This document shows positions 1,108 through 61,464 of a stretch of 64,000 nucleotides of DNA, in pieces; position 1 is the stretch's first letter, and each line of letters opens with the position of its first letter. Source of the DNA: Tubulanus polymorphus. Taxonomy: Eukaryota > Nemertea > Palaeonemertea > Tubulaniformes > Tubulanidae. The notes under the pieces were generated by a model. It had not been told where the DNA came from. It made no database searches and saw only the letters and a list, made by a program, of their open reading frames with translations. The stretch spans positions 3,256,072 to 3,320,071 of the forward strand of contig NC_134034.1 of assembly GCF_964204645.1 (NCBI RefSeq). Reading direction: 5' to 3'. A program made the position numbers and the translations under genes.

Positions 1108-1801
1108 TGACCCACCAGGATCCAATAGGTGTCGCTAGTGCGCAGCAGTGCTGCACTTGATCTTGAAAAAGAGAACGTCCCTGTTTTTTATTTGATTGCG
1201 GTAGATTCTGGTTAGATTTCTTTTGTTTCGATTTGGTGGATCCCCCAACAAACCCACCACGCCTGTCGGGCGCGAGACGGGGATTTGATTCCGGTTTATG
1301 TAAATAAAGAAAGGAGACCCAAAAACATACTGGCATACTGATAGATTTTCATTCACGGATAGGTTTATCAGTCCTGACAATAACCTGTTCGATAGACACG
1401 TACACATCTAGTTTTGTATTCCTTATAGCGCGTGGATACTTTTCAAACATTGCTACATATCGAAAATAATGTACTTGGTCAATTTCAAAGATATTAATGA
1501 ATTAGGGAAACCGATGCATTAGGGAAACGGATAATGCATAAAAATATTTCAGATGCGCGAAATAGATGTGCAAAATATTTTAGATAATCAGTTTCAATCT
1601 GAGATCCGAACCGTATAGTCTAGTATCTAGCAGTGTTGTTGATGTAATATGAGAATGTGTACATGGTCTGATATTGAGACCTACGAGCAATTATCTAACA
1701 CTTTGCTCGTAGTTGAGACTAACCGTACCGCGCTGATTAGCCAGTATATACGTACAATTCGTGGCGTGTAATTAGTGTTTTCTAATGCGGCAAAACGCGC
1801 G

Positions 1802-5746: not shown

Positions 5747-5990
5747 CGCGCGTTTTGCCACATTAGAAAATATCCATTAACGTCACGAATAATACGTATG
5801 ATGATATGTTTTGGCGAATAAGTCTGAATAGCACGCAGACGAATTCCCGACGACAGCAGGAACAGCACTGCTAGATACTAGACTATACCACAGTTCGGAT
5901 CTTAGATTGGAACTGATTAAATTAACGCGCATCTGAAATTCTGATGCATTATCCGTTTCCCGATGCATTATCCGTTCATTAGATATTAAC

Positions 5991-8505: not shown

Positions 8506-14139
<5,634 letters not shown>

Positions 14140-24500: not shown

Positions 24501-25138
24501 CTTGGATGGATTCTGTGAAGAACATTTTGCTCCGAAATGGGCTCGGATATATTTGGGAAAATCAAAATATTCCAAACGTGAATTACTTGAGTCTGATTCT
24601 TAAACAGAGATTGCAGGATCAGTTTATGCAAGTCTGGCATGCAAAACTTACTGATTCCACTATGGCTGTTACGTATTTAACAATCAAATGCCGTTTCGAA
24701 ATGGAAAAGTATCTAACTGAATTAACCCCTAGGGACCGGTTAACTTTATGTAGATTTAGATGCTCAGCTCACAGGCTACCGGTGGAAGTTGGGCGGTGGC
24801 GTGGAATTGCCCGTGCCAATAGGCTGTGCCAAAAGTGTGATTTAGTGGCGGTGGGGGATGAATATCACTTTTTACTCGTCTGCCCGTACTTCCAGGAATC
24901 CAGAGCTAGATATATCCCGGAGCGTTATTGGAGATTCCCCAATAACGTAAAGTTGTATGATTTGTTCAACTCAAATTGCCAAACTCTTAAAAAATTGGCG
25001 TTGTATATACGCAAATGTTTAATACATTTCTAATGTTAAATGTTGCAATGTCTATTGTAAATTAATTTTGTGCTCTGTGCAATTGTATAATTGTAGAGTA
25101 AATAAACTTAACTTAACTAAAAAAAAAATTTAAATTTG
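21057..25138 (+). mobile_element. 5'-truncated non-LTR retrotransposon (LINE) inserted in copy A
   Basis: The insertion separates 'tttaaactgacgcg' from 'gtacctgaaaacaacg', which are contiguous in copies B (30075-30110) and C (35505-35540), so two empty sites define it. It carries a partial ORF1, an endonuclease/RT ORF2 and a tail 'taaataaacttaacttaact' followed by poly-A. It lies on the plus strand, antisense to the iGluR exon it interrupts. Confidence 0.92.
21581..25033 (+). CDS. LINE ORF2: AP-type endonuclease and reverse transcriptase
   Basis: A continuous frame of about 1150 codons with no internal stop. Endonuclease motifs in order are LSLNVGGLRSK, ALTETKLDD, GCVYVPPES, ICGDFNAYTGS and a LLSDVHSAIV variant of SDH. 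RT motifs are IIPIFKQKGS.DPSNYRGVTL, FVDYKRAFDS, GVRQGENLSPVLFSIFLNDL and the catalytic MYADDTVLM. The C-terminus has a zinc-knuckle-like CQKCD..GDEYHFLLVC. The superfamily (CR1, L2 or I-like) cannot be fixed by eye. No ATG occurs in frame before the endonuclease motifs: the first Met is in VDYMISSS, about 255 codons in. Initiation is therefore not a simple AUG start. The intact frame indicates a young insertion. Confidence 0.92.
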   Translation, partial: RDTEAKLSILSLNVGGLRSKLHVPEFQALILENDVIALTETKLDDTDEQWIKQFFKSLGYKIFLKNRKKISSFRSGGIAIAVRLNLAPHVCPIDSESKLVLWLRVHKQLTGSEKNIQIGCVYVPPESSSYGGSECFDELNLEIIENYNANDSHLFICGDFNAYTGSLFDYSDPNDFLTQGLEFENEVFADTHTCVQILNSLNITRRKTKDLSINNYGLRLVELCKNHSIIILNGRIAPDLTVGDFTCHKGDNEHIVDYMISSSYLINYVKRLEVMAFDRLLSDVHSAIVTHLQLKTSAPVVTGSQNFEPEEVVNWDPDKKDQFAQDISRNSTVLIEINENLMNGSLSASEANERLCAVMLQSAVKVMGKRIVKRKSKPRPPAKATQNEVVRNTRLDYRRAKRTYSSLPSRNNHYIMNRAFRKYKNAIHKWNSDRKTVFNKKIRSLSKSDPHNFWNYFKKNHNNTCNVSSADFLNHFKSMNERPVLDGSEPRLHNVEDFNGNNYDQTPLNQPINGDEILKSINKLKNFKACGTDKIPNEFLKSAEESLLPTLMCLFNNVLDTGNIPESWLNGMIIPIFKQKGSADDPSNYRGVTLLSNVGKLFTSVINNRLTNYLETNNILLENRAGFRQKHGILDHIYSLKSLVDMFLNSNRKLYCIFVDYKRAFDSIWRKALWHKMINSGVTGKVLNVICSMYQGIKSCVFSNDSKTDAFESFMGVRQGENLSPVLFSIFLNDLEGYLDAQNCPSLNLRMRNDAWVKLMILMYADDTVLMSESPQGLQKLIDNLHVYCKDWKLQINCEKTKVMIFSKRRLRNPPEFNINGRVLELVYNYKYLGILFSHTGSFAQCRKALATQAQRAMFSVLKKVSEYSLDVDVSLKLYDSMVLPILLFGCEIWGYENLRVLECVQLKFFKYLLKLKKSTNSSFVYGELGRFPLEVYVQLRIVNFWAKLITDDKLSSKVYSCVYNSYIDGQANSWMDSVKNILLRNGLGYIWENQNIPNVNYLSLILKQRLQDQFMQVWHAKLTDSTMAVTYLTIKCRFEMEKYLTELTPRDRLTLCRFRCSAHRLPVEVGRWRGIARANRLCQKCDLVAVGDEYHFLLVCPYFQESRARYIPERYWRFPNNVKLYDLFNSNCQTLKKLALYIRKCLIHF

Positions 25139-27021: not shown

Positions 27022-29010
27022 TTACATCCATGCATTTTCCCAATCCTTGTCGATCTCTTCGATAAAATTCTTCAATATCGCTTCGAGATCCTCCTTAATT
27101 TCCGCTTTAACGAATTTCTCGAATTCGTCGCGCGATATCCTTCCATTTTCGTCGGTGTCGGATGCCATCAGTGTCGCTCTTACTTTTTCTCCTTGTTCTC
27201 CGGTCTGACCCAGAAATGACAGGTAACATTCGACTTCTTCCGCGTCCAAATCCCCGCTTTTATCTTTGTCGAATTTTTCGAAGGTGTCCTTCCACTTTTT
27301 AACGACTCTATGGCTGGAATAATTGTGAAATGAATAAATGAGGCGACAGTATAATGAATTGACAGCCGATTAGTGTTTCGTAATGATAATCCGACCCGCG
27401 GGCTAAGACGGCAGTAATAGGTCAAGCAACCGAAGACAGAAAACAAGTGCCTACTTCATACAGACTAACAGAGTGAACCATTCCAAATTATAGGAACGTT
27501 AGATTATTCAAGGCCCAGGGCCCAATTTCACGAACATTTAACTCAATTTTCATTCAAATTTTGAAACCTCATTAAAAAATATAGTTTCACGAATTTTTTC
27601 TTGATTTGAAAACATTACTTAAAAGTCCAACGTATTATGCTTACGACTATTTCAAAAAGCCGAATATCGAGTGACCTCGGTCATGAAAAATCAACCCAAC
27701 CCGCATATTCTTCATGACATTGGCTTAAACGAAAAATCCAAGATGGCCGGTAACGTCAGTTTTCAATGGGGACTCTACGTTCGACTGCGGCAATCGAGGA
27801 TTCTACTTGTGGTAAGCGAAGATCCTCCAGGTGTCGCTAGTGTGCATTCAGACAACGACTCCCAGATTTCTTCTGAGATTCAATTAAAATCTAACCATAA
27901 TTTGTTGAATTCTTTGAATGGTGAGTTAAGTGAAGTTCACCCTATATATGAACCTAAAGATCATTCGAGTTTATCAAGAAGGGGATTTGCCTAATTTCTG
28001 ATGAGGGAGGCTAAAAATCTAGATGAAAGTTCATCCAAAATGAATTAGATTTTGACAGGGTTGTTGCACCGATGCGCACGCCATCTAGTGGGATAGCTGG
28101 TGGCACCGAGTCCTCATTGTGATGGACATTTCACCTAATCCTCATATCAGGTTTTAGGTATTCATCTTGAAATGTGGGGTGTGTATCACACTAATGTGGT
28201 CCCTGGGAACGAACGACCTAGGGCGGACACCGATTAGTGAAATAAACCCCATCGAGGAGACTAGAAAAAAGAGGCACATTTAGGGAAATTTTGGTCCGGA
28301 AGAACAGCTAAGGTATTTCTTGGATGAAGCAGCCATTTAAAAGGGCAATAACGGGGTCCCTCTATCATTGTCAAATATTTTTTTCGAATAAAGCCGAAAG
28401 TAACCGATTACTGGAGAATGAGTGTTCAGATTTGTAAGGTTTGACAATGTAAGTCTTAGTAAAAAAGGCAACCACAACTGAACCACTGGACCGCCCCCAG
28501 AATCTGCCCCCGAAGTACCGCTGCCGCTGTCTCTTTTATGCATATGCACTATCGATGACATACCTGAACCAGTCGTGTACGAAGTCATTGAAATCTAACG
28601 GTTTTCTCTCTTCTCTGCAGTTGTACGTATCATCCAAATGCTGAAAAAATATCACGTACAAATTCTTACAATATATCATCCGCATTTTGGATTTCTCAAT
28701 GATATCGTTTACGAAAAATCGATTTCTGAAAGATAATACCTATTCAAACACGTATTGCACGATATGTGGACAGAAAATTCGAGGCATCTTTCGAAGAGAC
28801 ATTTCATATCTAAAAAGATCTTACCTCGATATATCTATTATTTATGAGGACCCTCGACAGATCATCTAACGAGAGCTGGCAACGTCCATTTCCGTCATAC
28901 GTCTTGGTATATTGCTCCACGACGTACTTGAAAACTTTCTTGAATCTATCGTTGATCTGATATTTAGTAAAAATGACATCGAACAACTGAAAATATTTGA
29001 CGTAGTCCAT
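27022..29010 (-). CDS. EF-hand calcium-binding protein, copy B (three exons)
   Basis: Exons complement(28825..29010), (28564..28640) and (27022..27313) join in phases 0 and 2, giving about 184 residues. Loops DKDKSGDLDAEE and DTDENGRISRDE both keep the acidic ligands and Gly6. The N-terminal domain differs from A and C over a short patch (YTKTYDGNGRCQLSLDDL then VLINNRYIE). That patch looks more like a working EF loop and may reflect gene conversion or relaxed drift. The start of exon 3 reads S-H-R-V-V where C has S-E-K-V-V. Cytosolic Ca2+ binding is inferred from the fold only. Confidence 0.78.
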
Positions 29011-29876: not shown

Positions 29877-31606
29877 CTATTTTCTCGGGTCGCCGCCGCC
29901 ATTTTCCAGTAATTTCGCTCTTCTGTAGATCAACAGTAAGCGTTCTATATGCGCTACCGACGACCCGAAGGCTAGTCCGATAACTAATATGAGGAATACG
30001 CCCGACATTTCAAAAAACGTCAACGGTTCGGTCTCTGACGTTTCGTCTGACCACCTGGTAGGATGGTCGCATTTAAACTGACGCGTGGTGTACCTGAAAA
30101 CAACGAATGAAAACATTTAACTGTTGGTCTGACTCGCTGTAATGTCAGAATGCTCCCACTAAATGTGGGTCAGTTAGTAATCAATTCGGGCCCAATAAAA
30201 GTTAACGCCACCTGGTGGGTTGGCTGGCTGTTCCTCTGATCGGATCAATAACGCTTGAGATGCATTTGATGTACATACACGTGGTCAGTGTTGTTGTACG
30301 TACCAAGGTTTGGGCTTTTTTTTGGGGGGGGGGGGGTGATATGGAGTTATAGTATATGGTCTTCCACCAGACACCAGGTATATACGACCAGGGGAAAGTG
30401 TGGCAGAAATTCAAATGGTTTATATGTACGGAAATGAGTAATATGTTACTGGGGGCTGGCGGAGAATTATGATGTGGTATTCCTTAAAATTACAAAACCG
30501 GAGCGGAGCATTTTTCCCAATATTACTACTGACCTGTCTATTATCTCTTTTTGATCACCCCGAGTTCTTATGCGGGCTATCAACGAGTTCATTACGTGTC
30601 TTACTAAAGAACCCTTCGGCAAAGCTAATGCGAATCGTAACCCGTAAACCTCTTTAAGTCCATATTCGATTAAATCGCATCTTTGCGCTACAGTGTACCG
30701 CGCCGTTAGCGTATCGGTGATCAGTATGAAATTCTCGTTGACAATTCTTTCAACAGCGGTTTCTAAATCCGGCAGTACGTTACCGGTTCGGCGTATAAAG
30801 TTCCATACCATGATATCGGGATATTTCTGCGCTTTCGACAAAACTTTCTCCACTTGGGTGTTTTTGATGACGCCGAAATTGCCCTCGCCCCTTTCGATCA
30901 ATTCGTTGAGATCCTTTATCGGGTTTTCACCGGCACTCAATCTCAAGAACGCCGTCATATTGGCCGTATAGGCGGCCGATAGGGCTAGACCGAGAAACAT
31001 TACAACGGTGACGAGGATCCTACTGGGAATGGCGTTTGGATTAGTGTCCGAACTTCCGCTACTGAGTCGAGCCATCGTGAAGTAGAGACTGTCCACTAAA
31101 GAGATCGTGTCGGTTGTGTAGTCTATAAACGTCAACAACGACAGCAATATACTTATGACGAGTATCGTTGCCAGAATAACCAGCCAAAAAGTGCCGACGA
31201 ACGGTTTTAGAAATTGCCAGCGATTCTTCTCAACTCTGGGCAGCTTCGATACCAGGTGCAACCACGCCGGAAAAATCGGGTCGCTGAAATCCACGGAGGT
31301 TGTCCGCTCGAAGTCGTTAGAAAATCCACCAGCTACTATCTCCCCCTAGCGGTGGAAATGCGTGCAGTATTATGATATTTTTGACAAATACAACAAAGTT
31401 TGCTTTGACGTTGGTTGAAAATTTGATTAATTGCCAGAGAAAATACTCACAAAAATTTGAAGGCGATCCAAAATTTTCGCACTATATTTCAAATCATGAT
31501 CGATGTATGCGAATTTGACTGTAGTAAACGGTCTGTACGTCTCGAGCAGGTCGTAAAAAATTCCGCTGAAATTTCCATCTTCCGATTTCATAAAGAAAGG
31601 CGGCTC
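29877..31606 (-). CDS. Ionotropic glutamate receptor 3' half, copy B (S1-M1-pore-M3-S2-M4)
   Basis: Exons complement(31451..31606), (30534..31345) and (29877..30093) have compatible phases (0, then 2) and an open frame of about 394 residues. S1 holds EPPFFMKSEDGNF, and the agonist-binding Arg lies in ERTTSVDFSDPI. M1 is near FWLVILATILVISILL. M3 carries AAYTANMTAFL, the iGluR SYTANLAAFL signature. S2 has LRFALALPKGS, and M4 is MSGVFLILVIGLAFGSSVA followed by a short cytoplasmic tail. S1 is very short, as in divergent IR-like receptors. No ATD or signal-peptide exon lies between it and copy C, so this is either a headless channel subunit or a transcript that starts cryptically. A TAG lies in frame just upstream of the S1 acceptor. 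Confidence 0.72.
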
Positions 31607-32309: not shown

Positions 32310-34451
32310 TTACATCACTGCATTTTGCCAATCCTGGTCGATCTTGACGATAAAATTCTCCAATATCGCTTCGAGATCCTTCTTAATTTCCGCTTTAACG
32401 AATTTCTCGAATTCGTCGCTCGATATCCTTCCATTTCCGTCGGTGTCGGATTCCATCAGTGTCGCTCTTACTTTTTCTCCTTGTTCTCCGATCTGACCCA
32501 GAAATGACAGGTAACATTCGACTTCTTCCGCGTCCAAATCCCCGCTTTTATCTTTGTCGAATTCTTCGAAGGTGTCCTTCCACTTTTTAACGACTTTCTC
32601 GCTGGAATAATTGTGAAATGAATAAATGAGGCGACAGTATAATGAATTGACAGCCGATTAGTGTTTCGTAATGATAATCCGACCCCCGGGCTAAGACGAC
32701 AGTAATAGGTCAAGCAACCGAAGACAGAAGACAAGTGCCTACTTCATACAGACTAACAGAGTGAACCATTCCAAATTATAGGAACGTTAGATTATTCAAG
32801 GCCCAGGGCCCAGTTTCACGAAAATTTAACTCAATTTTTTGATTAATTGCCATTGGTTACTTCATGTTTTCAATTAGGACAACAATTCAAACTCAACCGT
32901 TTTAAGCTTAAACTTTTCGTGAAACTGGGCCCTGGACATATCATAAGCCCGAATCCTGACACCATGATTTGGAAATTTCCATTCAAATTTTGAAACCTCA
33001 TCAAAAATATAGTTTCACGAATTTTTTTCTCGATTTGAAAACATTACTTAAAAGTCCAACGTATTAAGCTTACGACTATTTCAAAAAGCCGAATATCGAG
33101 CGACCTCGGTCATGTACCGGCCATATGAAAAATCAACCCAACCAGCATATTCTTCATGACATTGGCTTAAACGAAAAATCCAAGATGGCCGGTAACGTCA
33201 GTTTTCAATGGGGACTCTACGTTCGACTGCGGCAATCGAGGATTCTACTTGTGGTAAGCGAAGATCCTCCAGGGTCGCTAGTGTGCATTCAGACAACGAC
33301 TCCCGGATTTCTTCTAAGATTCAATTAAAATCTAACCATAATTTGTTGAATTCTTTGAATGGTGAGTTAAGTGAAGTTCACCCTATATATGAACCTAAAG
33401 ATCATTCGAGATTATCAAGAAGGGGATTTGCCTGATTTCTGATGAGGGAGGCTAAAAATCTAGATGAAAGTTCATCCAAAATGAACTAGATTTTGACAGG
33501 GTTGTTGCACCGATGCGCACGCCATCTAGTGGGATAGCTGGTGGCACCGAGTCCTCATTGTGATGGACATTTCACCTAATCCTCATATCAGGTTTTAGGT
33601 ATTCATCTTGAAATGTGGGGTGTGTATCACACTAATGTGGTCCCTGGGAACGAACGACCTAGGGCGGATACCGATTAATGAAATAAACCCCATCGAGGAG
33701 ACTAGAAAAAAGAGGCACATTTAGGGAAATTTTGTTTCGGAAGAACAGCTAAGGTATTTCTTGGATAAAACAGCCATTTCAAAGGGCAATAACGGGGTCC
33801 CTCTATCATTGTCAAATATTTTTTCGAATAAAGCCGAAAGTAACCGATTACTGGGAGAATGAGTGGTCAGATTTGTAAGGTTTGACAATGTAAGTCTTAG
33901 TAAAAAAGGCAACCACAACTGAACCACTGGACCGCCCCCAGAATCTGCCCCCGAAGTACCGCTGCCGCTGTCTCTTTTATGCATATGCACTATCGATGAC
34001 ATACCTGAACCAGTCGTGTACGAAGTCATTGAAATCTAACAGTGTTCTATTTTCTCTGCAGTTGTACGTATTATCCAAATGCTGAAAAAATATCACGTAC
34101 AAATTCTTACAATATATCATCCGCATTTTGGATTTCTCAATGATATCGTTTACGAAAAATCGATTTCTGAAAGATAACACCTATTCAAACACGTATTGCA
34201 CGATATGTGGACAGAAAATTCGAGGCATCTTTCGAAGAGACATTTCATATCTGAAAAGATCTTACCTTGATATATTTCATATTCGGCAGGACCCTCGACA
34301 GTTCATGTAACGAGAGCTGGCAACGTCCATGTCCGTTATACTTCTTGGTATATTGCTGCACGACTCGCAGGAAAACCTCCTTGAAACTATCGTCGATCTG
34401 AAATTTAGTAAAAATGACATCGAACAACTGAAAATATTTGACGTAGTCCAT
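32310..34451 (-). CDS. EF-hand calcium-binding protein, copy C (three exons)
   Basis: Exons complement(34266..34451), (34005..34081) and (32310..32601) are in phases 0 and 2, about 184 residues. It starts MDYVKYFQLFDVIFTKFQ. The canonical loops are DKDKSGDLDAEE and DTDGNGRISSDE, with all acidic ligands and Gly6. The C-terminus is IVKIDQDWQNAVM. Donors GTAAGA and GTATGT and acceptors TTTTTTCAG and TTATTCCAG are good. The N-terminal half has no canonical loop. The family (SCP-, calbindin- or calmodulin-like) is undecided. It lies about 0.85 kb downstream of the copy C iGluR stop on the same strand. Confidence 0.78.
32803..32937. mobile_element. Short MITE with GGGCCCAGTTTCACGAAAA termini (copy C intron)
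   Basis: The left end 'ccagggcccagtttcacg' and right end 'cgtgaaactgggccctgg' are inverted repeats about 130 bp apart, inside EF-hand intron 2 of copy C. In copy A the same site (about 18322-18475) holds a different inverted-repeat insert with related 'ccagggcccagtt' ends. In copy B it is partly deleted. A related end lies near 55000-55022. Confidence 0.7.
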
Positions 34452-35305: not shown

Positions 35306-37418
35306 CTATTTTCTCGGGTCGCCGCCGCCATTTTCCTGTAATTTCGCTCTTCTGTAGATCAACAGTAAGCGTTCTATAAGCGCTACCGATGACCCGACGG
35401 CTAGTCCGATAACTAATATGAGGAATACACCCGACATTTCAAAAAACGTCAACGGTTCGGTCTCTGACGTTTCGTCTGACCACCTGGTAGGATGGTCGCA
35501 TTTAAACTGACGCGTGGCGTACTTGAAAACAATGAACGAAAACATTTAACTATTGGTCTGAAACGCTGTAATCAGGTGCCGGCAATCTGACTGTGGCAAT
35601 TGAGGATTCTAGTCATGGCATGTGAGGGTCTAACGTGGTTGTTATAGTGCGCAATATGACATCAACTACTGTGGAAATTATAGAGGATTCCACCTGTCCA
35701 GTGGAACGTGAGTATCTACCTGGTGTCGCTAGTATGATGTACATAGGAAACCAGCTACCGTGGCAATTGAGAATAACACTCGTGTTAAGTGAAGATCCAC
35801 CAGGTGTCACTAGCGGACAACAGGACATCAACTACGATTCGACTGGTGACACGCGAGGAACCACCAGGTGATGCTAGTGTAGGACTAACTGTAGTATTAA
35901 CACATACAAGCAGGCAGTTATGTTGTGGGTCAGTTAGTAATCAATTCGGGCCCAATAAATTTCCATTTCAAAGTTAACGCCACCTGGTGGGTTGGCTGGC
36001 TGTTCCTCCGTTCGGATCAATAACGCTTGAGACGCATTTGATGTACATACACGTGGTCAGTGTTGTTGTACGAACCATTTCAGCGAACTGAAATATATTC
36101 AAGGGTTGGGCATTTGGAGGGAGGGAGTGAGATTGGGGGGGGGGGGGGTGAGATTGAGTTATAGTATATGGTCTTCCACCAGACACCAGGTATATACGAC
36201 CAGGGTAAAGTGTGGCAGAAATTCAAATGGTTAATATGTACGGAAATGAGTAATATGTTACAGGGGGCTGGCGGAGAATTATGATGTGGTCATCCTTAAA
36301 ATTACAAAACCGGAGCGGAGCATTTTTCCCAATATTACTACTGACCTGTCTATTATCTCTTTTTGATCACCCCGAGTTCTTATGCGGGCTATCAACGAGT
36401 TCATTACGTGTCTTACTAAAGAACCCTTCGGCAAAGCTAATGCGAATCGTAACCCGTGAACCTCTTTAAGTCCGTATTCGATTAAATCGCATCTTTGCGC
36501 TGCCGCGTACCGCGCCGTTAGCGTATCGGTGATCAGTATGAAATTCTCGTTGACAATTCTTTCAACAGCCGTTTCTAAATCCGGCAGTATATTACCGGTT
36601 CGGTGTATAAAGTTCCATACCATGATATCGGGATATTTCTGCGCTTTCGACAAAACTTTCTCCACTTGTGTGTTTTTAATGACGCCGAAATTTCCCTCGC
36701 CCCTTTCGATCAATTCGTTGAGATCCTTTATCGGTTTTTCAACGGCTCTCAGTCTCAAGAACGCCGTCATATTGGCCGTATAGGCGGCCGACAGGGCTAG
36801 ACCGAGGAACATTACAACGGTGACGAGGATCCTACTGGGAATGGCGTTAGGATTAGTCTCCGAACTGCCGCTACTGTGTCGAGCCATCGTGAAGTAGAGA
36901 CTGTCCACTAAAGAGATCGTGTCGGTTGTGTAGTCTATAAACGTCAACAACGACAGCAATATACTTATGACGAGTATCGTTGCCAGAATAATCAGCCAAA
37001 AAGTGCCGACGAACGGTTTTAGAAATTGCCAGCGATTCTTCTCAACTCTGGGCAGCTTCGATACCAGGTGCAACCACGCCGGAAAAATCGGGTCGCTGAA
37101 ATCCACGGAGGTTGTCCGCTCGAAGTCGTTAGAAAATCCACCAGCTACTATCTCCCCCTAGCGGTGGAAATGCGTGCAGTATTATGATATTTTTGACAAA
37201 TACAACAAAGTTTGCTTTGATGTTGGTTGAAAATTTGATTAATTGCCAGAGAAAATACTCACAAAAATTTGAAGGCGATCCAAAATTTTCGCACTATATT
37301 TCAAATCATGATCGATGTATGCAAATTTGACTGTAGTAAACGGTCTGTACGTCTCGAGCAGGTCGTAAAAAATTCCGCTGAAATTTCCATCTTCTGATTT
37401 CATAAAGAAAGGCGGCTC
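35306..37418 (-). CDS. Ionotropic glutamate receptor 3' half, copy C (shifted M4 acceptor)
   Basis: S1 exon complement(37263..37418), pore exon (36346..37157) and M4 exon (35306..about 35521). The domains match copy B: the ERTTSVDFSDPI Arg, M1, AAYTANMTAFL in M3, LRFALALPKGS in S2 and MSGVFLILVIGLAVGSS in M4. The M4 acceptor, 'ttttcag|g' in A and B, is 'ttttcaag' here, so the only nearby AG moves one base and the normal join would shift frame. An alternative donor (TCA|GTAGTA, four bases beyond the usual GTCAGT) would restore the frame. Upstream at 42.0-45.4 kb lie ATD and signal-peptide exons on the same strand, so this copy is probably the 3' half of a full-length gene whose intron holds the DIRS remnant and the palindrome. 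Confidence 0.7.
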
Positions 37419-49148: not shown

Positions 49149-50129
49149 TCAAGAGCAGCGTAACAACACTTTCATCCGTTCTTTAAATTTTATACTGAAC
49201 ACATAATAGAATATGCCGTTTACAGCTGAATTAATGGCTTGGAAAACGTCATTCACGAGTAATATTCGCCACAGGATGGACCATGGGGTAATACGTAATA
49301 AAGCATTGAATAGCATATCGGGAAAAACTGACACCATGAATATGGCTGATGCGACGAATACCATTCTGTAAGCCGTTCCATCGAGTTTATTTTCTTTACT
49401 CGTATCTGCACCTCCGGTCAATTGTTTCCTATTTCTAGCGTATATTCGTAATTTGATTATCATTATCGCATTTAAGATTGGTATAAGAGCGAACGGCAAA
49501 TATGAGGAGAAAACATTCTTTATCAAAGACGTATATCTAGGGTGGCTTGTAACAGATTTTGGGCCGGGGACAGTCAGGCCGTATGTACATGGATATTTTA
49601 CGTACACAACGATCCGGTCTTGCGCATGGTTTGCCTCAATCCCACTCCAAATGAGGATCCAAATGGCCGAAAAAACATAACAATGTTTCAGATTCCAATG
49701 TCGCTTTGCTTTAAGCGGAAAACAAATATGAACCGTTCGGTCGAACGTCACTAATAGGGTCAGAACGTTACGAATGTAAGATGCCCATTTTGAGATGGCA
49801 TTACTCGCAATATAGAGCTCAGTGGCTCCCACCGCGCCGTCTAAATAAAGACCTATCTTTCCATAGCGGAAAAGTTTCACGACCCAGGTTATATGGTTGT
49901 ACAAAACGACTCCGATGCAACAGACAATATCGAAAACCGCCAGTAACAATAACAAGAAATGCGAAGTCGCCGAGCTATTCATTTTATGTAGTCGATATAA
50001 GACCACCACTGTAAGCGAATTGATAACGAGGCCGGACCATGCGACCGGTCCTATCACCGTCGCTGAAACAAGATTCCACACTACTTTATCATAATACATG
50101 CACCTCGCTGACATCGAGGCGTTCAACAT
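49149..50129 (-). CDS. Rhodopsin-like (class A) GPCR, distinct from the GPCR pair
   Basis: A single-exon receptor of 326 residues from a true ATG at 50129. The N-terminus has an N-glycosylation motif (NAS). TM1 is near VIGPVAWSGLVINSLTVVVL with its Asn. TM2 has LLLLAVFDIVCC with the conserved Asp. TM3 ends TFDRTVHICFPLKAKR, a DRY variant. Loop 2 has a Cys (KYPCTYG), TM6 lies in VFVASAIFMVSVFPDML, and TM7 has AVNGIFYYVFS in place of NPxxY. The overall form matches invertebrate peptide (FMRFamide-like) receptors; the ligand is unknown. A (TA)n tract and a CG-rich minisatellite lie 165-365 bp upstream. Confidence 0.85.
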   Translation of the reverse strand: MLNASMSARCMYYDKVVWNLVSATVIGPVAWSGLVINSLTVVVLYRLHKMNSSATSHFLLLLLAVFDIVCCIGVVLYNHITWVVKLFRYGKIGLYLDGAVGATELYIASNAISKWASYIRNVLTLLVTFDRTVHICFPLKAKRHWNLKHCYVFSAIWILIWSGIEANHAQDRIVVYVKYPCTYGLTVPGPKSVTSHPRYTSLIKNVFSSYLPFALIPILNAIMIIKLRIYARNRKQLTGGADTSKENKLDGTAYRMVFVASAIFMVSVFPDMLFNALLRITPWSILWRILLVNDVFQAINSAVNGIFYYVFSIKFKERMKVLLRCS

Positions 50130-50293
50130 AACTGTAACCGTCAGCGAGTACGTACGAAATGGTAGGAAGCGGTGTAATTATACGTGCGTTTTGCGAGCGA
50201 CTGACTGATACGCGCCGAGTGTAAATCCCAAATCACAGCCCGTGACGATATAGGTAATAATACCGTACCGACATATAAACCGACATATAGGTT

Positions 50294-50492: not shown

Positions 50493-51029
50493 AAAAGGGC
50501 CACTGTGAAAATTCTTTTATCGTTGCTCTAGCCGAAAAGAAAATCTTTTTAGTACGGCCCGAATCAGCCACCATAGATGATAAAAAGAAACGGGTATAGA
50601 AAAAAAACGCCAGCGATTTCAATGAGTTTTATTTTCCAAATTCTTAAAATAATGCGGGTTCGCATTACGAAGCAAGTAAGACATCCTAGTACCAGGAGAT
50701 GGCTACACCCATAAGCCTTATATGACGTCATCAAGGTCTATCGATCGTTCACTCCGGCATCAATCAAGTTAGAGCGATAGTTTCTGACGTCATAAGAGAA
50801 CCTAATGGGATCGGTCATCATTTCTAGACAAGTCTGTACATTCACACGTTAGCTTTAGGGGGTTTATCACAATCGGGCGAGACGCATGCAGCGTGCGGAA
50901 TTGTTGTCATTTTAGAAGGTTTTATTGAATAAGTCTTTTTCGATGAAATCGTGGTTATCTTTAGAAGGTTTACCGCGTTCTCTGTAGGAAAAGCAGAGAT
51001 GATGTGTTTGGTTTGATTATCTAGTCGTA

Positions 51030-54000
51030 TTACCGCGCGCAAGCTCCGTCGTTACACGATATAGTTTCGCTGTTTGAACCGACGCAATCCGCGCCGCCAT
51101 TTTGCGGGGACGGATTCGTACAAGTCCTCGTCCTCATTTTAGTGCCATCGCCGCACGTGACACTACACAATCCGTAATTTCCCCACTTTGTCCAGTTTCC
51201 GTCTCCTGGGGAAAAAGTTTAAAAAAGTGGAGTAACTCGAAAGGGTCGTATTTCCTGATTCATGGACGTCGATCCGGATGCCTTGGATATTTCCGGGTAC
51301 TTACTTTTTGGGGGGCAATTTACAAATTCGACGTCATCGACGCAAATATCACCGAGATAGTCGAGACCCCTGGTGGCGTGAATTCGAACCTGAAACGATT
51401 AACGTTAATGTTTATTTCATACCATTCAGCAATGGCTAATGTCTAATGTCTAATGTCTAATGTCTGATGTTTGTAGTTCATTTTCAATTAAAAATGTCTC
51501 AAGTAAACTACTGAACACATGTGAAGTGTGGACGATCAGTTTTTGAAAGTGTGCTGATAAAATGTCTAATGTCTGGTGTTTGTAGGTCATTTTCAATTAA
51601 AAATGTCTCAAGTAAAGTACTGAACACATGTGAAGTGTGGACGATCAGTTTTTGAAAGTGAGCTGATAAAATGTCTAATGTCTGGTGTCTGTGGTTCATT
51701 TTCAATTAAAAATGTCTCAAGTAAAGTACTGAACACATATGAAGTGTGGACGATCAGTTTTTGAAAGTGTGCTGATAAAATTTCTAATGTCTGGTGTCTG
51801 TAGTTCATTTTCAATTAAAAATGTCTCAAGTAAAGTACTGAACACATGTGAAGCGTGGGCGATCAGTTTTTGAAAGTGTGCTGATAAAATGTCTAATGTC
51901 TGGTGTTTGTAGTTAAATCAATGAAAAAATGTAATGCAAAAAATGTCTCGGACGAAAACCTGAACATATGTGAAGATGTGAAGTGTGAACATGTCTATAG
52001 TGCCTGGTATTCTTAGTTGATTGTCAATCCAAAAATGCTTCGCGGAAAGTCCTGAACAGATGAGCTGATAAAATATCAGTAAGTATGTTCGTTTGTAGTT
52101 CATTAATAATGAGACAAAAATGTCCGAAAATAGGCAAAATCCAGTATGATAGGGTACATTTTCCCGAATGCACAGTGCAGAACAACTGTGAAACCGCCAT
52201 AAATATCAAATTCTAATTCTCCCTTGCCCTGCAATGAACACATATCTTACTGTAATATCATCTCCTTCTGGAACTGTCGCGATCGCCTCCTTCCAACCTT
52301 CACCTTGGTTGCCGGATATAGTGAAGATAGTGCTGCCGTCTGCCGTTACGCTCAGCGTGTTAATCGTCGCACCAAACATGTTATACCAAAGATGCATTTT
52401 ACACGTAGCATTTGACGTAACCGAATTCAATTCAAGAATGGCCTCGTCGTTTTCGTGCAAATCCGATGCCTCGATGTAGATAAAATGCCCTGAATAGAAT
52501 ACATCAGAATTCATCAGTGGACATAGTAGGTTTGATTTTCAATATTTTCTTTGTTAATGATGGTCTGGTGTCCGTGGCATAGTTCCTACGTATTCATATG
52601 AAATTTCTACAAAATTAGTAAATGGGAAATAATATTCCGCGCTTCATTTACATTTCGGCGCTGTTTGAAAACATGCTGGGCTTAAAATTAACAACTTAAA
52701 GAATGGTGATAATAATCTCTTATACAGCGCTAAATCGAAGCGAAGCAGCTCAAAGCGCTTTTCATTGAATTGGTATTTATTGCCCCAGCCTATAATCCTA
52801 ACCATGTACATCGTATCAGTCATCTCTTGGGAGAAGTAACAATCAGATCAGCTAATAAGCGCTGCGGTCAGGCCAGGTACCTCTATCAGGCCAGGTACCT
52901 ACTCATGGGTGGAGAGAGGCAATAATTATAAGTGTCTTCCCCGATGACTTTATGGTCATATGGGATTCGAACTCATGAACTGGTTTCCCAGAGCCGAACG
53001 CTTTAAGCACTCGGCCACACCGCTCCAAAAGCAGTCAAATAAACAGATCGTCTAAAGAGAAATGTTTTAACTCGTTTTCAAGAGTAATCAAATCAGAGCA
53101 TGATTCTGAAAGTTAAAACATTCATAAGATTCAAGCTTCTGAGGCAGAGGCACGGTGATCACAGTAGAGAGTGTTAAATGATGAATTCAGAACATTAATC
53201 ATAGTAGACATCGAATGATACATCAGTGGCATATGACTGCCTTGAATCAGTTCCTGATCTATACATCCTCAAATGGAAGCCTTAACATAATTGTTTCAAT
53301 TGGATTGGCAGATTTTTCCATCGCAACTTTACCAGTGTAGTCCTGCAGTGTATGGTCATCATCAGCACCGGTGTTACTAGATGGCGTGCCTATGTCTTTT
53401 ATGGTCCAATTAGCCGTCGTTCCCACGTTTGACCACAAGCTTTGATTACCGTGCTCGAACTCCGTACTGATCCCTGAAAAAAGACGAGGGCATCCATTAT
53501 GGAAAGTTGTCTCGATTGAAGATCGTCATTTTTTTGAATGAGTCTTGATGATAAAATGTCCAACGTCAGGTATTCGAAGTGCATTTCCATTCAGAAACGT
53601 CTGCGCCTGTTTGAAGTATGGCAATAAGTGTTTGGAAGCGTGCTGGCAAAGTCTGTTTGAAAAATGGTAATAAAGTAAAGTATTTCCTGTCTAAAGGGTC
53701 GAGGGATGTAGACTCCATTGAAGTATAGGCGTTCAGAAACCACAAGAGAATTGTGATTAAGTATCAACTACCTTTAGGGAACGCTGAATTCCGCACTCTG
53801 ATGGGCTGCAGAATACAACACTCTGATGGGATGCAGAGATCCAGACTCTGATTGGATGCAGAGTCCAACATTCTTATGGGATGCATTTGGATAAGTGTGA
53901 TATTTACCAACTTCACATTTCGCTGATTTACAGTTAGCTGTTTGTGTTTTGTCTCCGCTGCACTCGGCGCCTCCATTTTTAGGTGCCGGGTCGTCGCACA

Positions 54001-57000
54001 CGCGCGTCCGTATTTTAGTTCCAGATGCACCGCATTGGCCAGAGCATGCAGACCACGTGGACCACCTCGACCAATGACCGTCGATTGGAGCTGCGCAAAA
54101 AAGTAAATTGAGACGAAACACATTCATACGTTGGTAATATATTTACATATCAAAGATAGCCCGTTAAATATCTACATGAATTATGCATATTAGCTTTCAT
54201 AATTTACGCAAATATGCATAATTTGGATTCTATCGAGTATTTCGTGATCCCAGCACGGCAGGGATTCGAACCTGATAGCATTGAGATTCGCTGCGGTACT
54301 AGACCGAGTGCGCAGCTTAGATGATGTCAATATTAGCCAATCAGATATCCAGGTTTATTGTAGGGTTGTCCCATTTAATATTCTTTCGTGAAATCATACA
54401 ATTAGCGATTAGACAACGAGCATTATGATTGGTGGCGCAAGTTTTCACGCGGTAAATCTGCGCATGTAGCTGCGCACCCGGTCTAGTGTGGCACGGGTTC
54501 GTGCCGTGGCTGAGTGTGTAGCGATGCTGTCAGGTTCGAATCCCTGCCGAAGAAGGTTAGATGCCTGTGGCCTGTTGCTGTAGAACATTAGATGATCTTG
54601 GACTGCTCAAGATTGGTTTCAAAGTTGTTAGTTTGGCTTTCAAAGAAAAAATTATCCAAGACTTGTCTTAAATCTAGGCCATAATCGTGCATGTGTGAGC
54701 TACGATCGCGTTCTGTTTACCGTAACATTCGGTGTTAGTGCAAGCAACTGTTTCTGTTTCGACGTCGTACTCGTTCATATTCGGACAGTCGCCGGTGAAA
54801 CAAAATCGTTGACGTGATTTCTGACATTGTGAAGTACAAGGAGATGACCAAACAGACCACATCGAAATCTTGTCACTCGCGTCTGTAAAACAATAAAACG
54901 TTATCATTGGACATATTCAAGTCTAAGAATAAGTCCCTAATTCGAATTAAGCATTTTTGATTCGAATTATCACCTCTAATTCGAATCAAAAGTTAATTCT
55001 TTTTCGTGAAACCGGGCCCTGGTACTTACAGACTACTAAGTTCTCCAAGCATTATCTGTTAAAGGTTAAAAAAAGGAAAAACTGAATACACTGGATCTAG
55101 AGGCGATTCAAACCCACACGTCATGTAAAACTGGAGTCGAATTAAACCGACATAACTGTGGATATACAGTCAAATTGAACACACTGCACACAACGGTAGA
55201 ACTGGATGATCTAGAGTGAAATTAAACCAACACAACTGTGGAACTGAATCCAGACTCAAATTAAACCCACACAACACTGTGGAACTGGATCCAGAGTCAT
55301 ATTAAACGGACACATTATTACCTTGAAACTGGATCTAGAGTCGAATTAAACCCACACTACTGCGGAACTGGATCTAGAGTCGAATTAACCCCAAAACTGT
55401 GAAACTAGATCCAGACCAAAATGAACCCCATTCAACTGTGCATCTAGATCTAGAGTCCAAGGAAACCCAAACGGAACCAGAATAAGATTTACCCCACATA
55501 TCTTCGGAACTGGGTTCACTGTCACATAAAAATACAACAACACAACTTGCAAGTATTTGCATTTTTCTTTTAGAGAAAAAGGGACATCGTTCGCTTCGCG
55601 ATCATTTTTGGTTAAGGTTGAGACCTACCGTTTATGCAGGAGTATAATGCTTGTATTTCCAAGATATCTATAGCGCTCAGATCGTTTGATTGTCCGATTG
55701 GAGCTCCGCTAAGGCTGTTTATTGTCGCTTGCCCATTATTGCTGAAAGCATAGCCGCCGAAGTGCATCACGCTATCGTAATCGTAAATAGTCCCGTGAGT
55801 GTCGACTGTTCCCGGCGACATGCGGTCAAAATTGTCGTCTTTTCCTATTTTAAGTGAACAATCAAATAATTTAGCTACAATTCAAATCAATAATAGACGT
55901 ACTGCGGCAAGCGAGGATCAGCTAGGAGTCACTAGCGGTTATTCGGTTTGTCGTACATTGATTGGATACCGGCCAGGCTAACTGAGGAAAGCGAGGATTC
56001 GGCGATAATCCGCCAGGACCGCTGGTGGCACCGGGTAACCGCTCTGCCTTTAATTTCTTCTAAATTTCAACCAAATTCGAGTCAATTTTTCCGATTAGTA
56101 AATCAATTTTCAGTGAAATCGATAAAACTGAGTTAGAACGGGAATCATATATCTATCCAATGACTCGTTTGATGATTCTCGGATTTAGAAGCCTAAAAAT
56201 CAAGATCTAATTTCTTAGCCGATTTTCAATACGGATAACCCGGTGTTTTGTTGCGCCACCTGGTGTTGCCGGTATCCCATTTCATCTACAATTTCAATTC
56301 GAATGAACTTTTCCAATTTATAAATCGACTACTAGTGAAATCTAAACCATACACTGACGAATGGATAGGTAAAATATCTTACGACTCGTACTGTAATTTC
56401 TTTTCAAAATTAATCATTTAATTTAATTTCTGTAACAAATTATTTCTATTTTGTTGTATGATATTGTAATTTCATTCGTGAATGCACATTATCATTTTTA
56501 TATCGCTTATAAGGCGTTTTTACGAGCATCCGATTTTTGCGATCGATTTCGTGAACGATTTGCTCCGATCGTACGATCGAATCGAACGTTCGTAAAAATG
56601 ACGATGGATTTGGCTAATCACATGACATAAATATGGCGACGTTGAGGAAAAAAATGTATGGTTTTGAACTACCCGGTGCCGCCATCTTGGAAATCAAATC
56701 GCCAAATCGCTCGCCGAGCGAGTTGGTCGATTTCAAAAATCGATCGGAAAATCGTGTTCGTAAAAACGCCGATCGTGAAATCGATCGCAAAAATCGGTGC
56801 TCGTAAATGCGTTCCTACGATCGATCGCAAAAATCGGATGCTCGTAAAAACGCCTATAGTATTCGCAAGCGGGAACGTGAAAATCCAGTTATTACGTCAA
56901 GATTGAGCGTATTGATGCGCCATCTGGCGTGTGCCTCCAGAGTTTATTTTACGGTAAAAAATAAAGATTTTATTTTACCGTCCTGAATGTTCTCCCACAT

Positions 57001-60000
57001 AATCTCAACGTGCGCATCGCGATCCGGTCTCGAATGCTCGTGATAAAATCCTGCAAATTAAATTGCGGCTTTTTACATACTCTAAGCATAATTGGAAAAG
57101 CGATCAACAAGAATTTTCGATATAGCCGCTAGTTTTTCTGGTGCAACTGCAAATAACGCTCTTTAACCTCAGCAAAAATGGGAAATATAGCTTAAATAAC
57201 CGCTTTGATATATCAAAATTGAAAAAAAAATGGCAATTTTTTGACGCGCGGTTAAAATGTGCGGTCCTTAATTTCACATCGACACTGCTCTTAATTGTTG
57301 CGTTAAAAAGATCCAATAATCACCGGCAAATACCTAAATTTAATTTCCTTTTAAATGGTGCATTAATGAAGTTAATCAAGCAAGGGACTGCAGAGCTATT
57401 TGATATTCAATAAAAACTTATGTTTTAAAAATGAGCGCAAATTATCGCAACAATGGGGACCTTGAGGGACCGCAACAAAATGGCGCCTAGAAACTGGAAA
57501 CTTCTTTATTGAAGGCAGCGACTATCGCAATTTTGAGTTGCTCCCTAAGACCGAGAGGGAGAAAGAAGGAGAAGCCGATATGACAATTGTTTCGATCTTA
57601 CCCAGAGCATGCATTAGTTGATGTATGATAACGCCGATGGTTTCGCAGCCTGACCCGATCGATACGTCCTGGCCACCGGCTTGGTAGTAAAGCCGTCCTA
57701 CGTGAGACCAACAACTGCAGTACCGAGAAAGAAAAACAGACTTGATTTTGAAGCGCCGGTTTTATGAGTCGTTCAACCAGCTACAACCGATCCACCGAAA
57801 GGAGAAATCCGCCGGAACCACGAGAGATAGGTCGCAAGAAACTAATGATAGAGAGTCCAAAACAGAATCGCAACTGATAACAAAATTCATCCATGAAAAT
57901 AATTGTACAGCGCAGAGATCGATTGTTTACCATTTATATGATGTCACGCCTATCTGCGTATATATTGTAGTCATAGGAGAGGGAGACAGTAAATATTTAG
58001 AATATTCTATGTAATATAACACAAGTGTGGCTCAAGTCCATTATAGCATTAAATAGTTCCAGCAGAGACTTATCACATTGGACTTGTATTTGGAATTAAT
58101 CCGCCAATATTGGACTGATTGAATCTTACGACATTACGCCATAGGGACGTGCGAACATACCGTTTGTCGGTTCGTCGGTATGTCGGTTTGTCGGTTCGTC
58201 GGTTTGTCGGTTTGTCGGTATGTCGGTTTGTCGGTTCGTCGGTTTGTCGGTTTGTCGGTTTGTCGGTATGTCGGTTTGTCGGTTCGTCGGTTTGTCGGTA
58301 TGTCGGTTTGTCGGTTCGTCGGTTTGTCGGTATGTCGGTTTGTCTTGAAAAGTACGCAGCCGAATTACTCCTTTTCTAAAAATGTATCCTTGAGCGGGGA
58401 ACTATTCCACGCTATACTGGACTTGAACCACAAGGGCCGACTCAGCGAACACGAAGGTACAGAGCCGCAACACTTTCAGCGACCTTGACACCAAACAAGT
58501 GAACTAGCTAGGTGCGCGAATGTTGTTATGACGTCATAATACTCTAAATAAACAACACCGCGCGGTCTCGCGATACGCGCGTCGAAGGATCTAAAATCTA
58601 TTCTGCGATGTATTTTAAATAATGTTTATAAAAGAATCCATTTAAAGACTATAATTAACATATAAAACATTTAAAAAAAATCCAGAAATCGATCCTTTTC
58701 TAATATACTATTTTCAAGGATGAATCATTTTGTTATAGTTGTGATTCCTAATTGTAGTCATATTTCCTATAACCGTATCAAAACTCCTTTACGATCGTTG
58801 TGGTTAAAAAGGGCACGATTTCTGCGGAAAACCGCTTTAACTCACCCTGTTCCTTTAAAGAAGCGTAACCAATTTGTATCGCTGTCATTTTTCTCAGCAA
58901 ATTTCAAACACGTTTTTGCTTCGTAACCGTTCATTGCAACCCTGATTAGAATTTTCGTAGCTGTCGAAATAAACATTTTTGGGCTTTTTAGATTCGCTAT
59001 AGACCCAAAATGAGCTTAGACTGGTCTTAATTTATTAGATTGGTTATAGTAGCAAAATGAGCTTAGATTGGTCTTAAAATTTATTAGATTGGTTATAGAA
59101 CCAAAATGAGGTTACAAGATTGGTCTTAATTTATTAGATTGGTTATAGAAGCAAAATGAGGTTAGACTGGTGTAAACTTGTTACATTGACTATATAATGA
59201 AATGCTTTAGAATGGCAGGTGTTAGATTGGATACAGTCAACATGAGCTTAGAGCGGTCGTTAGATTAAATTTATGAAAAAATAGCTACGACTAGTTTCTA
59301 ATCCGAGCCTTGTAACAAAACCCTAGCCCTCTCACCAGTTGCGAGACTAGAATCCAGCACGTAAGGGATAACTCTTGATGGCCAAAGTCGTTGTCTCTGC
59401 ATCGGCGCGGCCCGTTTCGTGATGCTGCTCGCGTGTTGCGGGGCATTTTCGTCAATAGCAATATCTCCTTCCCTCAATTGAGGCATCTTCTCGCCGTTTT
59501 CGCTTTCTTTTTCTGCGCACGAAAGAAAAAGAATGGTGGTCATTGCCGCAATGAGGAAGTCAACGAACCATGAGCATAAATCTTGCTAGATGCGATCACG
59601 GGTTTACGGGACATTTTCTAATAAGACTTTGGACTTAAGATGTAACCTTCTTACACGCCATTTAAGGTTATCGATTCTTCATATCAATACATTAGCTTAG
59701 TTCAATTCAGTTTTGTTTGTTCGACAATCTTGGATCAAGGATACACACGCGTCATGCTGAAAAACGCGGTTCCGCAGCCCGTTTTAAGGCGCCGCCTATC
59801 GCCTCTTGTCATGCAAATGAATAGGCAATTACGTCATAGCAACGTCTCCGAGCGCCGGGGAGTAGTTTTTTTAGCGCATTATGCGAGCGCCTTTTGAGTA
59901 AGCTATCGCTGATAAATTGAAACCAAACAGCCTTATGAATAGGAATGGAATAGGACTTATTATGTCACCTTATCGTACGCCATTTTAGGCATCGATTCGA

Positions 60001-61464
60001 GTCTCGCAATTACGAAATATTACCATTCAAACGATCATTGAATTGAGACATACCTGACTGAGGAAACTCATTATCCAGTTGTTAAATATAAACAATTGAT
60101 AACCAATTCAGTGAATTAATGATTCAGTCGATCTAGCAACTTCTATAGCTACCTTCTGCGTTGATGCCGATGATTTTGTCGGTTACCGTTTTCAGACCCG
60201 CGGCTGCGTACGCATTTATTCTCAATATTCTCAATGTGTTTTTGTGAACATTTACGGAATTAGCTGAAGATATGAAAAAAAGAAATAAAATTTCAAACCG
60301 ATTCGAATTTCTTGTTATTGCTATTAAAACGATATGGAAGATTACGGAAGTGTTCTGAACTAAGCATTATGCGAGCGTATGTTGAATAAACTATCGCCAA
60401 TAAACGAAAACAAAACAACCCCCTATGAAAGATGGTGCTGTTCATTTATGATTTCGTAGTCCTCACTGAACAAATTCGATGCATATGAAAGGTAGAGAGA
60501 GTCTCGTAATTACAAAATATTACCCGATCGAATCCAAATGAATTCAAATGATCGTTGAATTGAGACATGCTTATTGAAGAAACTCATCATCCAGTTGTTA
60601 AATAAAAACAATTGATGACCAATTCATCGAATTAATCGTTCAGTCGGTCTTGCAACTTCTAGTTACCTTTCGCGTTGTTGATTCCGATGATTTGATCGGA
60701 TACCGTTTTCCGACCCGCGGCTGCGCGCGCATTTATTCTCAATATGGCGTCGTGGACATTTCCGGAATGAGCTGAAGATTTGAAAATAACGGAAATAATA
60801 CGATTTGATCGTCGCCAAATTTTCGAACAGATCGCTTTGTACCGTGCGAATATTCCTTTCTGGTGCCTACAGAAACTATCATCGAAAATTGTTAGCGTTT
60901 CAATTGACAAAAATAATAATCTGTTTAGTTACGAACGAAAATTGAAATTCGATATTCGACATTGATAATCTTATATCTTATCGTTTGAATAATACCTCAT
61001 ACCAGCATGAAAAAAAAATATTCGTAGAGGGTTCCAGTGTTAACCTTGTGTTGAATAAGTAAGATTTGACTGATAGTACTCAAAAAATTTACTAGATTAA
61101 TTAGATTAGAAACCCGAGAGTTCGCTAATTATGCATTGTAGCTTTTTTCAATTAATGTGAATTGCGTATTGTTTTTTTTGTTGTTATTTTGGCAGCGGGG
61201 ATTTATGAATCGCAATTACCAATTGTTTTCATGAGCAACATCCATGAAATCAAAGTTGATATCAAACTCATCGTCTAGAATTGTTATAAGGCGACAACCA
61301 TTTTGGCCAACAGTGCATTAGCTCAAGGAAACACATTTCAAACTCCCATTTTTGTCATTCTTATTGTCAGATATTGTATCATTCTATACCGCGATAGTCT
61401 TACCTCTCGCTGCTGTTAAAGTGGTGACGATTAACGTGGTCACTAACGCCGATGCTGCCAACAT
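51030..61464 (-). CDS. Secreted astacin-like protein with TSP1, TSP1, MAM, TSP1 modules; catalytic Glu and Met-turn Tyr replaced
   Basis: Exons on the complement: 61404-61464 (signal peptide [20 protein letters not shown]), 60667-60771 and 60153-60263 (two related 35-residue repeats), 59336-59512 (propeptide LREGDIAID and mature start [13 protein letters not shown]), 57602-57714, 56979-57050, 55629-55844 (rest of the astacin domain), 54721-54882 and 53908-54090 (TSP1, e.g. [16 protein letters not shown]), 53333-53473, 52251-52489, 51305-51389 ([30 protein letters not shown]) and 51030-51205 (TSP1, then stop). Nearly all junctions are phase 1. The zinc-site segment reads [19 protein letters not shown] where the family has HExxHxxGxxH, and the Met-turn reads SVMHF where it has SVMHY. 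Zinc ligands are kept. One exon between 57.7 and 59.3 kb (the CIxF segment) was not found. Probably a secreted, catalytically inactive astacin. Confidence 0.82.
51440..51915. repeat. 108-bp tandem repeat in the last MAM intron
   Basis: Four clear units start near 51461, 51569, 51677 and 51785, each containing 'ttttcaattaaaaatgtctc' and 'gtgtggacgatcagtttttg'. Decayed units continue to about 52110, and a related stretch lies near 53540-53640. Confidence 0.9.
52862..53028 (-). mobile_element. tRNA-derived SINE
   Basis: On the minus strand 'ggagcggtgtggccgagtg' (A-box-like) is followed by 'gagttcgaatcccat' (B-box-like) at tRNA spacing with a Ser/Leu-like long variable region. The acceptor stem does not pair and a non-tRNA tail follows, so it is a SINE rather than a functional tRNA gene. 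Confidence 0.65.
54255..54550. mobile_element. Foldback element with tRNA-like termini, copy 3
   Basis: Left end 'cggcagggattcgaacctga', right end 'caggttcgaatccctgccg', preceded by 'gtggctgagtgtgtagcg'. Inner 'agccaatcagatatcc' and 'cattatgattgg' also pair. It lies in the intron between the two TSP1 exons. Confidence 0.8.
55070..55500. repeat. Degenerate tandem repeat of about 50 bp
   Basis: About nine diverged units of 'aactggatctagagtcgaat' followed by 'taaacccacacaactgtgg'. It lies in the intron between the last astacin exon and the first TSP1 exon. Confidence 0.85.
55940..56390. repeat. Dispersed repeat shared with 41380-41705
   Basis: It shares 'aagcgaggattYRgcgataa', 'ttttccgattagtaaatcaa' and a terminal 'gttgcgccacctggtgttgc' with the other copy. 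Each end carries a CTCF-like core. No coding sequence is seen. Confidence 0.6.
56512..56855. mobile_element. MITE with perfect 36-bp terminal inverted repeats
   Basis: It begins 'aggcgtttttacgagcatcc' and ends 'ggatgctcgtaaaaacgcct', continuing inward through 'gatttttgcgatcgat' on both sides. Internal sequence is rich in GATCG motifs. No transposase. It lies in the astacin intron between exons 56979-57050 and 55629-55844. Confidence 0.85.
58160..58345. repeat. 8-bp minisatellite (CGGTNNGT)n with higher-order order
   Basis: About 22 units of CGGTTTGT, CGGTTCGT and CGGTATGT. The variants follow a recurring TATG-TTTG-TTCG-TTTG order rather than a random one. Open frames across it (VGLSVCRF repeats) are artefacts. 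Confidence 0.93.
59000..59270. repeat. Degenerate ~60-bp repeat ('gattggttatagaaccaaaatgag')
   Basis: Four diverged units of 'ttattagattggttatagaa' plus 'ccaaaatgagcttagactgg'. The reverse complement is dispersed at about 18370-18440 and 61730-62060, so it is an interspersed family tandemly expanded here. Confidence 0.7.

Follow-up and report, generated by a model that had tools for sequence, protein, structure and literature searches.

A predicted astacin homologue of Tubulanus polymorphus with both catalytic residues replaced and zinc ligands kept: a candidate secreted pseudoprotease

A stretch of 64,000 nucleotides of the Tubulanus polymorphus genome (contig NC_134034.1; C10:3256072-3320071), called the window below, carries a predicted astacin gene in which the general-base Glu of the zinc site and the Tyr of the Met-turn are replaced, and in which all three zinc-binding His are kept. 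On balance, its sequence points to a secreted pseudoprotease of the astacin type that would bind zinc and derive by duplication from a similarly built, presumably active protease. A selected non-catalytic role of some sort, a class that overlaps the scaffold explanation discussed below, is likely. The genome searched comprises 267.8 Mb in 77 contigs. Coordinates without a contig or locus name are those of the window.

Active site and gene model

The zinc site reads HQLMHALG (exon 57602-57714): the Glu of HExxH is Gln, codon CAA. The Met-turn reads SVMHF (exon 55629-55844): the Tyr two residues past the Met is Phe, codon TTC. In an alignment to human BMP1 chains (all four printed), the Gln lines up with the HELGH Glu and the Phe with the SIMHY Tyr. 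Both replacements and the retention of the three zinc His had been noted in a first-pass annotation made from the letters alone, and they hold in the minus-strand model. Also kept are the HxxxHxxGxxH spacing of the zinc ligands, the Met of the Met-turn, the family-specific Glu after the third His and RPDRD (RxDRD). The predicted protein also has the four cysteines that form the two disulfides in astacins (TCLKF, GCWS, GSGC, LYSC). The PF01400 match (209 bits) covers profile positions 2-188 of 189, i.e. the whole catalytic domain. By profile, zinc ligands and cysteines, the predicted protein is an astacin homologue (M12A).

An excerpt of PMC9848320 describes the Glu of the astacin zinc motif as a general base/acid required for catalysis and the Tyr as swinging to stabilise the intermediate. 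Since both are replaced, the window protein should not cleave peptides. The propeptide holds a GD whose Asp may block the zinc, and its last residues are KR; the mature start after KR aligns to the BMP1 chain start from the second residue on. Parts for folding, latency, processing and zinc holding are kept in sequence and would presumably serve these functions. A regular-expression scan of both strands of the window gave no alternative zinc-site exon (e.g. a mutually exclusive HE exon); a hidden exon of this kind in an intron was rejected on this ground.

The gene model was built from exons, splice sites, sequence and homology, and describes a predicted transcript. It includes 14 exons on the minus strand, from 61464 to 51030, with AG/GT at all 13 introns; the exons join in frame into one open reading frame (ORF) of 651 codons with stop TAA. 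The model is free of internal stops and frameshifts, and all its splice dinucleotides are intact. The exon that the first-pass annotation expected between 57.7 and 59.3 kb was found at 58846-58960. The modules run from signal peptide and propeptide through astacin to TSP1-like, TSP1, MAM and TSP1. Pfam matches of the protein are Astacin (the match given above), MAM (74 bits) and three TSP1-type profiles. The exons are listed below with the evidence for each. P1 (L040, C10:668401-678400) and P2 (L039, C10:647501-657500) are two close paralogues on the same chromosome.

Exon 1, 61404..61464 (-): start codon and signal peptide; gene model, homologous first exon in P1 and P2.
Exon 2, 60667..60771 (-): part of the propeptide, from a duplicated exon (copy A); gene model, paralogue and self-alignment.
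Exon 3, 60153..60263 (-): part of the propeptide, from the same duplicated exon (copy B); gene model, 87% identity over 278 columns including intron.
Exon 4, 59336..59512 (-): propeptide end with GD, dibasic KR site, start of the mature domain; gene model and alignments.
Exon 5, 58846..58960 (-): first astacin cysteine; gene model, aligned to the paralogues.
Exon 6, 57602..57714 (-): zinc site HQLMHALG, Glu to Gln (CAA); motif scan, gene model, BMP1 alignment.
Exon 7, 56979..57050 (-): third zinc His, family-specific Glu, RPDRD; motif scan, gene model, BMP1 alignment.
Exon 8, 55629..55844 (-): Met-turn SVMHF (Tyr to Phe, TTC), last astacin cysteine; motif scan, gene model, alignment.
Exon 9, 54721..54882 (-): TSP1-like module 1; WSxWS/Cys pattern and paralogue counterpart, no Pfam best stretch.
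Exon 10, 53908..54090 (-): TSP1 module 2; gene model and Pfam.
Exon 11, 53333..53473 (-): MAM domain, part 1; gene model and Pfam.
Exon 12, 52251..52489 (-): MAM domain, part 2; gene model and Pfam.
Exon 13, 51305..51389 (-): MAM domain, part 3; gene model and Pfam.
Exon 14, 51030..51205 (-): TSP1 module 3 and stop TAA; gene model and Pfam.
AATAAA, 50921..50926 (-): candidate polyadenylation signal about 100 bases past the stop; consensus match only.

For exon 5, a nearer acceptor (start 58941) was rejected: it breaks the frame. The upstream acceptor is in frame, and exon 5 of P1 and P2 aligns there. The propeptide exon and its flanking intron are tandemly duplicated over 59999-60798 (-), with copies at 60499-60798 and 59999-60288, both in frame. 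No second copy of this exon was seen in the searched stretches of P1 and P2. Intron 5 contains a minisatellite of TCGGTTTG-like units (58160-58345).

Paralogues and zinc sites elsewhere in the genome

Close relatives were taken from a protein search of the same genome, with 10 kb around each. Both P1 and P2 have the zinc site HEIMHALG and the Met-turn SLMHY. The Glu codon is GAG in both versus CAA in the window gene (two bases differ), and the Tyr codons are TAC and TAT versus TTC for the Phe. The exon and module order of P1 and P2 is that of the window gene where exons were found, and the exon borders of P1 look alike; the catalytic exons 4-8 of P1 show 70-83% identity to the window gene. One propeptide exon was found in each paralogue versus two in the window gene. 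For P2, a search as far as C10:660500 did not recover exons 13 and 14. In P1, five more TSP1 exons similar to exon 14 come after it, at a spacing of about 330-340 bases (L040:7456-9675). Five more distant relatives, whose zinc-site exon likewise ends after HALG, all keep HE and MHY. Because the two paralogues and these five relatives retain Glu and Tyr, both losses are, from the aligned sequences, derived in the window gene.

The genome-wide survey of zinc sites scanned 128 of 131 loci (L001-L130 minus L039 and L040; L131 also excluded). It drew on the matches listed, and the genome has more than these; among the hits outside it are C11:1020550, C11:1105891, C11:1149319 and C11:2729314, alike by score, as well as C4:1045095, the zinc exon at C4:3886810 and the fragments at C2:25976103 and C11:4574115. 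Very degenerate astacin sites may fall below its score cut-off. Among the matches listed, 89 zinc sites were read, of which 84 have HExxH; these 84 include C8:7634097, where the third His is replaced, and sites whose third His lies on the next exon and was not read. A Met-turn was read for 61 of the 89 sites and for the other 28 none was. The five sites that differ from HExxH are the following.

Window gene: HQLMHALG, SVMHF; all three His kept.
C1:24057034 (L100/L107) and C1:24073645 (L099/L106): both QQLLTVLG, SLLHF.
C4:7056638 (L077/L109): RELIHVLGFGYE, SVMHL; beside a tandem array of HExxH genes.
C6:10561819 (L087/L108): QQLLHVLGMKAE, SLLHY.

The Met-turn Tyr is present in 56/56 HExxH sites and absent in 4/5 of the others (Fisher p 9.6e-6, a guide only, the rows being related genes). 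This joint loss in the sites read supports viewing Glu and Tyr as one functional unit. Leaving the window gene aside, Glu is found in 84/84 of the sites read with both His of HxxxH. The four other degenerate astacins resemble the window gene in their non-HExxH site and, for three of the four, in the absence of the Met-turn Tyr. They differ from it in having lost at least one zinc His each; the window gene alone of the five keeps all three. These four are further pseudoprotease or pseudogene candidates. At the two C1 copies the family matches cross in-frame stops (three and one TGA), which may reflect decay or a match running into an intron.

Selection and competing explanations

Selection was estimated with a codon model written for the analysis; its tests pool the time before and after the loss on the window branch. 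On an unrooted tree of three genes (window gene, P1, P2), omega of the window branch is 0.265 over the 191 codons of the catalytic domain, which rejects neutrality (p=1.8e-7); the values are 0.29 for the first two TSP1 modules (p=0.0013) and 0.36 for MAM exons 11-12 (p=0.0025). In the rooted test with a synonymous clock, omega is 0.31 for exons 6-8 (p=5.6e-5) and 0.27 for exons 5-8 (p=1.0e-6), and neither value differs from that of the paralogues (p=0.49 and 0.91, respectively).

Several results weigh against a constrained pseudoprotease. Part of the unrooted window branch is the stem leading to P1 and P2, and it also takes in the period that preceded the loss. Over the 84 codons of signal peptide and propeptide, omega in the unrooted test is 0.78, indistinguishable from neutral (p=0.51). 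Rooted without a clock, with five outgroups and a FastTree topology, the window lineage has an omega of 0.60, which differs significantly neither from 1 (p=0.70) nor from the omega of the paralogues (p=0.26). In the same clock-free setting, a separate omega for this lineage beats a single omega (p=0.004), at a poorly determined value of 1.85. Because the clock-free rooted tests fail to reject neutrality, relaxed constraint on the active-site half is possible. The large divergence of the outgroups is taken to be the reason for the uncertain split of silent changes. Changes at invariant positions are also ordinary in number. Over 127 aligned codons of exons 6-8 in eight genes, 44 positions are invariant among the relatives (invariant: at least six of the seven other genes with a residue, all agreeing). 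The window gene differs at 3 of them; the same count made for each other gene gives 0 to 5 (P1, 0; P2, 1; L101, 0; L102, 3; L103, 0; L104, 5; L105, 1). Its three changes are at the general-base Glu, at the Tyr of the Met-turn and at an Arg within a GQR motif. What is unusual in the window gene is that two of the three are both residues of the chemistry.

The first-pass annotation had proposed a selected pseudoprotease rather than random decay. This stands in part: the intact frame, the derived joint loss and the low omegas of the unrooted and clock tests (0.265 and 0.27-0.31) support it, but the clock-free rooted test does not reject omega = 1 on this lineage.

A constrained secreted pseudoprotease would have arisen as follows. 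A protease with signal peptide, propeptide, astacin, TSP1, TSP1, MAM and TSP1, presumably active, would have duplicated in the same genome. The window protein would fold, bind zinc and be processed, as predicted from its sequence. It would take up the same substrates or multimers as the active paralogues and leave them uncut, acting as a substrate binder, a competitor or a non-catalytic partner. The TSP1 and MAM modules would place it in the matrix. The specific mechanism, substrate binding or competition with the paralogues, is tentative. A narrower version, doubtful as it stands, is a natural substrate trap: the protein would keep hold of uncut P1 and P2 substrate, damping the action of these active paralogues in the matrix or confining it locally, with latency under the enlarged, duplicated propeptide. 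The replacements Glu to Gln and Tyr to Phe are near-isosteric, and zinc ligands and cleft are whole; changes of this type are used in the laboratory to build trapping mutants. A decoy function of the predicted protein is plausible.

A non-catalytic adhesion or scaffold protein is possible, if rather improbable. Here the TSP1 and MAM modules would be kept by selection, and the zinc cleft would be merely structural and bind no substrate. The unrooted omegas of these modules reject neutrality, and few parts of the gene resemble P1 and P2 as closely as the longest MAM exon (87% and 82% identity). The MAM domain of meprin beta is reported, in an excerpt of PMC9848320, to contribute to dimerisation. 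Against a purely structural cleft speak the unrooted and clock tests, which show the catalytic domain to be as constrained as that of the paralogues, and the retention of zinc ligands and cleft motifs.

Unlikely, and slightly more so, is a recently inactivated duplicate, which would have worked as a protease over most of the branch, then lost Glu and Tyr at a late stage and now drift without a function of its own. The clock-free rooted test leaves neutrality unrejected, the propeptide region looks unconstrained, and the propeptide exon was duplicated within the window lineage. But a fully neutral branch would be expected to carry about 12 to 21 nonsense changes (from a silent divergence of 0.16 or 0.29 per site in exons 5-8, applied to the whole coding sequence), and the 651 codons hold none, nor any frameshift or splice lesion. 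By this estimate the gene would have been neutral for at most about one seventh to one quarter of the branch. The pattern at invariant sites (Glu, Tyr and one Arg, with both chemical residues turned into near-isosteric ones) also speaks against drift.

That the protein is still an enzyme, of weak or altered activity, is very unlikely. Its zinc ligands are whole, and Tyr-to-Phe alone is said to leave astacin a few per cent of its activity, a result attributed to Yiallouros et al. 2000. Against this, the motif Glu, described in an excerpt of PMC9848320 as the general base/acid required for catalysis, is present in all other sites read that keep both His of HxxxH. An assembly or base-calling error at the two codons is highly unlikely: the Gln codon CAA is two bases away from the GAG of both paralogues, the Phe codon is a second, separate change 1.86 kb off, and losses of Glu and Tyr co-occur in other genes.

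Other features of the window and comparison with known systems

Other ORFs of the window are listed below. Bacterial promoter and tRNA scans of the window were uninformative for an animal gene.

1772-2854 (+), 4679-5776 (-) and 49152-50177 (-): three long G-protein-coupled receptor ORFs with Srw profile matches; the first two form a close inverted pair.
10051-10440 (+): cyclophilin-type ORF fragment (Pro_isomerase).
17826-18182, 27022-27369 and 32310-32657 (-): three near-copies of an EF-hand ORF; Pfam run on the first.
21581-25030 (+): ORF like that of a non-long-terminal-repeat retrotransposon, open over 1150 codons, with endonuclease and reverse transcriptase domains.
30470-31345 (-) and 36279-37157 (-): two nearly identical 292-codon ORFs; the first matches Lig_chan.

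Among the M12A entries of databases are some labelled non-peptidase homologues. A literature search found no natural inactive astacin in the titles and abstract openings listed; subscription journals were mostly uncovered, which makes this weak evidence of absence. PMC4398375 was rejected as an astacin precedent: the inactive enzyme in the part of that source consulted is a chitinase-like protein. According to an excerpt of PMC9848320, that review of the astacin family retained only matches with an intact zinc motif; genes like the window gene would have been filtered out of it for this reason.

Active M12A astacins (BMP1/tolloid-like 1, meprin beta, crayfish astacin) have the same catalytic domain, and the PDB matches reach 1.8e-44. 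Shared with them are the zinc His, the Met of the Met-turn, the family-specific Glu, RxDRD and the four cysteines, and the MAM domain is found as in meprins. The window protein differs from them in the absence of the general-base Glu and the Met-turn Tyr and in its added TSP1 modules. The nearest published parallel met is ADAM7: its site, given as HQLGHNLGMQHD in an excerpt of PMC11266112, keeps the His and has Gln in place of Glu. ADAM7 and other inactive ADAMs (M12B pseudoproteases) belong to a different metzincin family (adamalysins) and have a disintegrin and transmembrane architecture.

Pseudoproteases are known in many families. An apparently inactive paralogue that keeps its zinc ligands, beside two relatives with whole sites in one genome, offers a clean natural comparison for roles of the astacin domain other than cutting.

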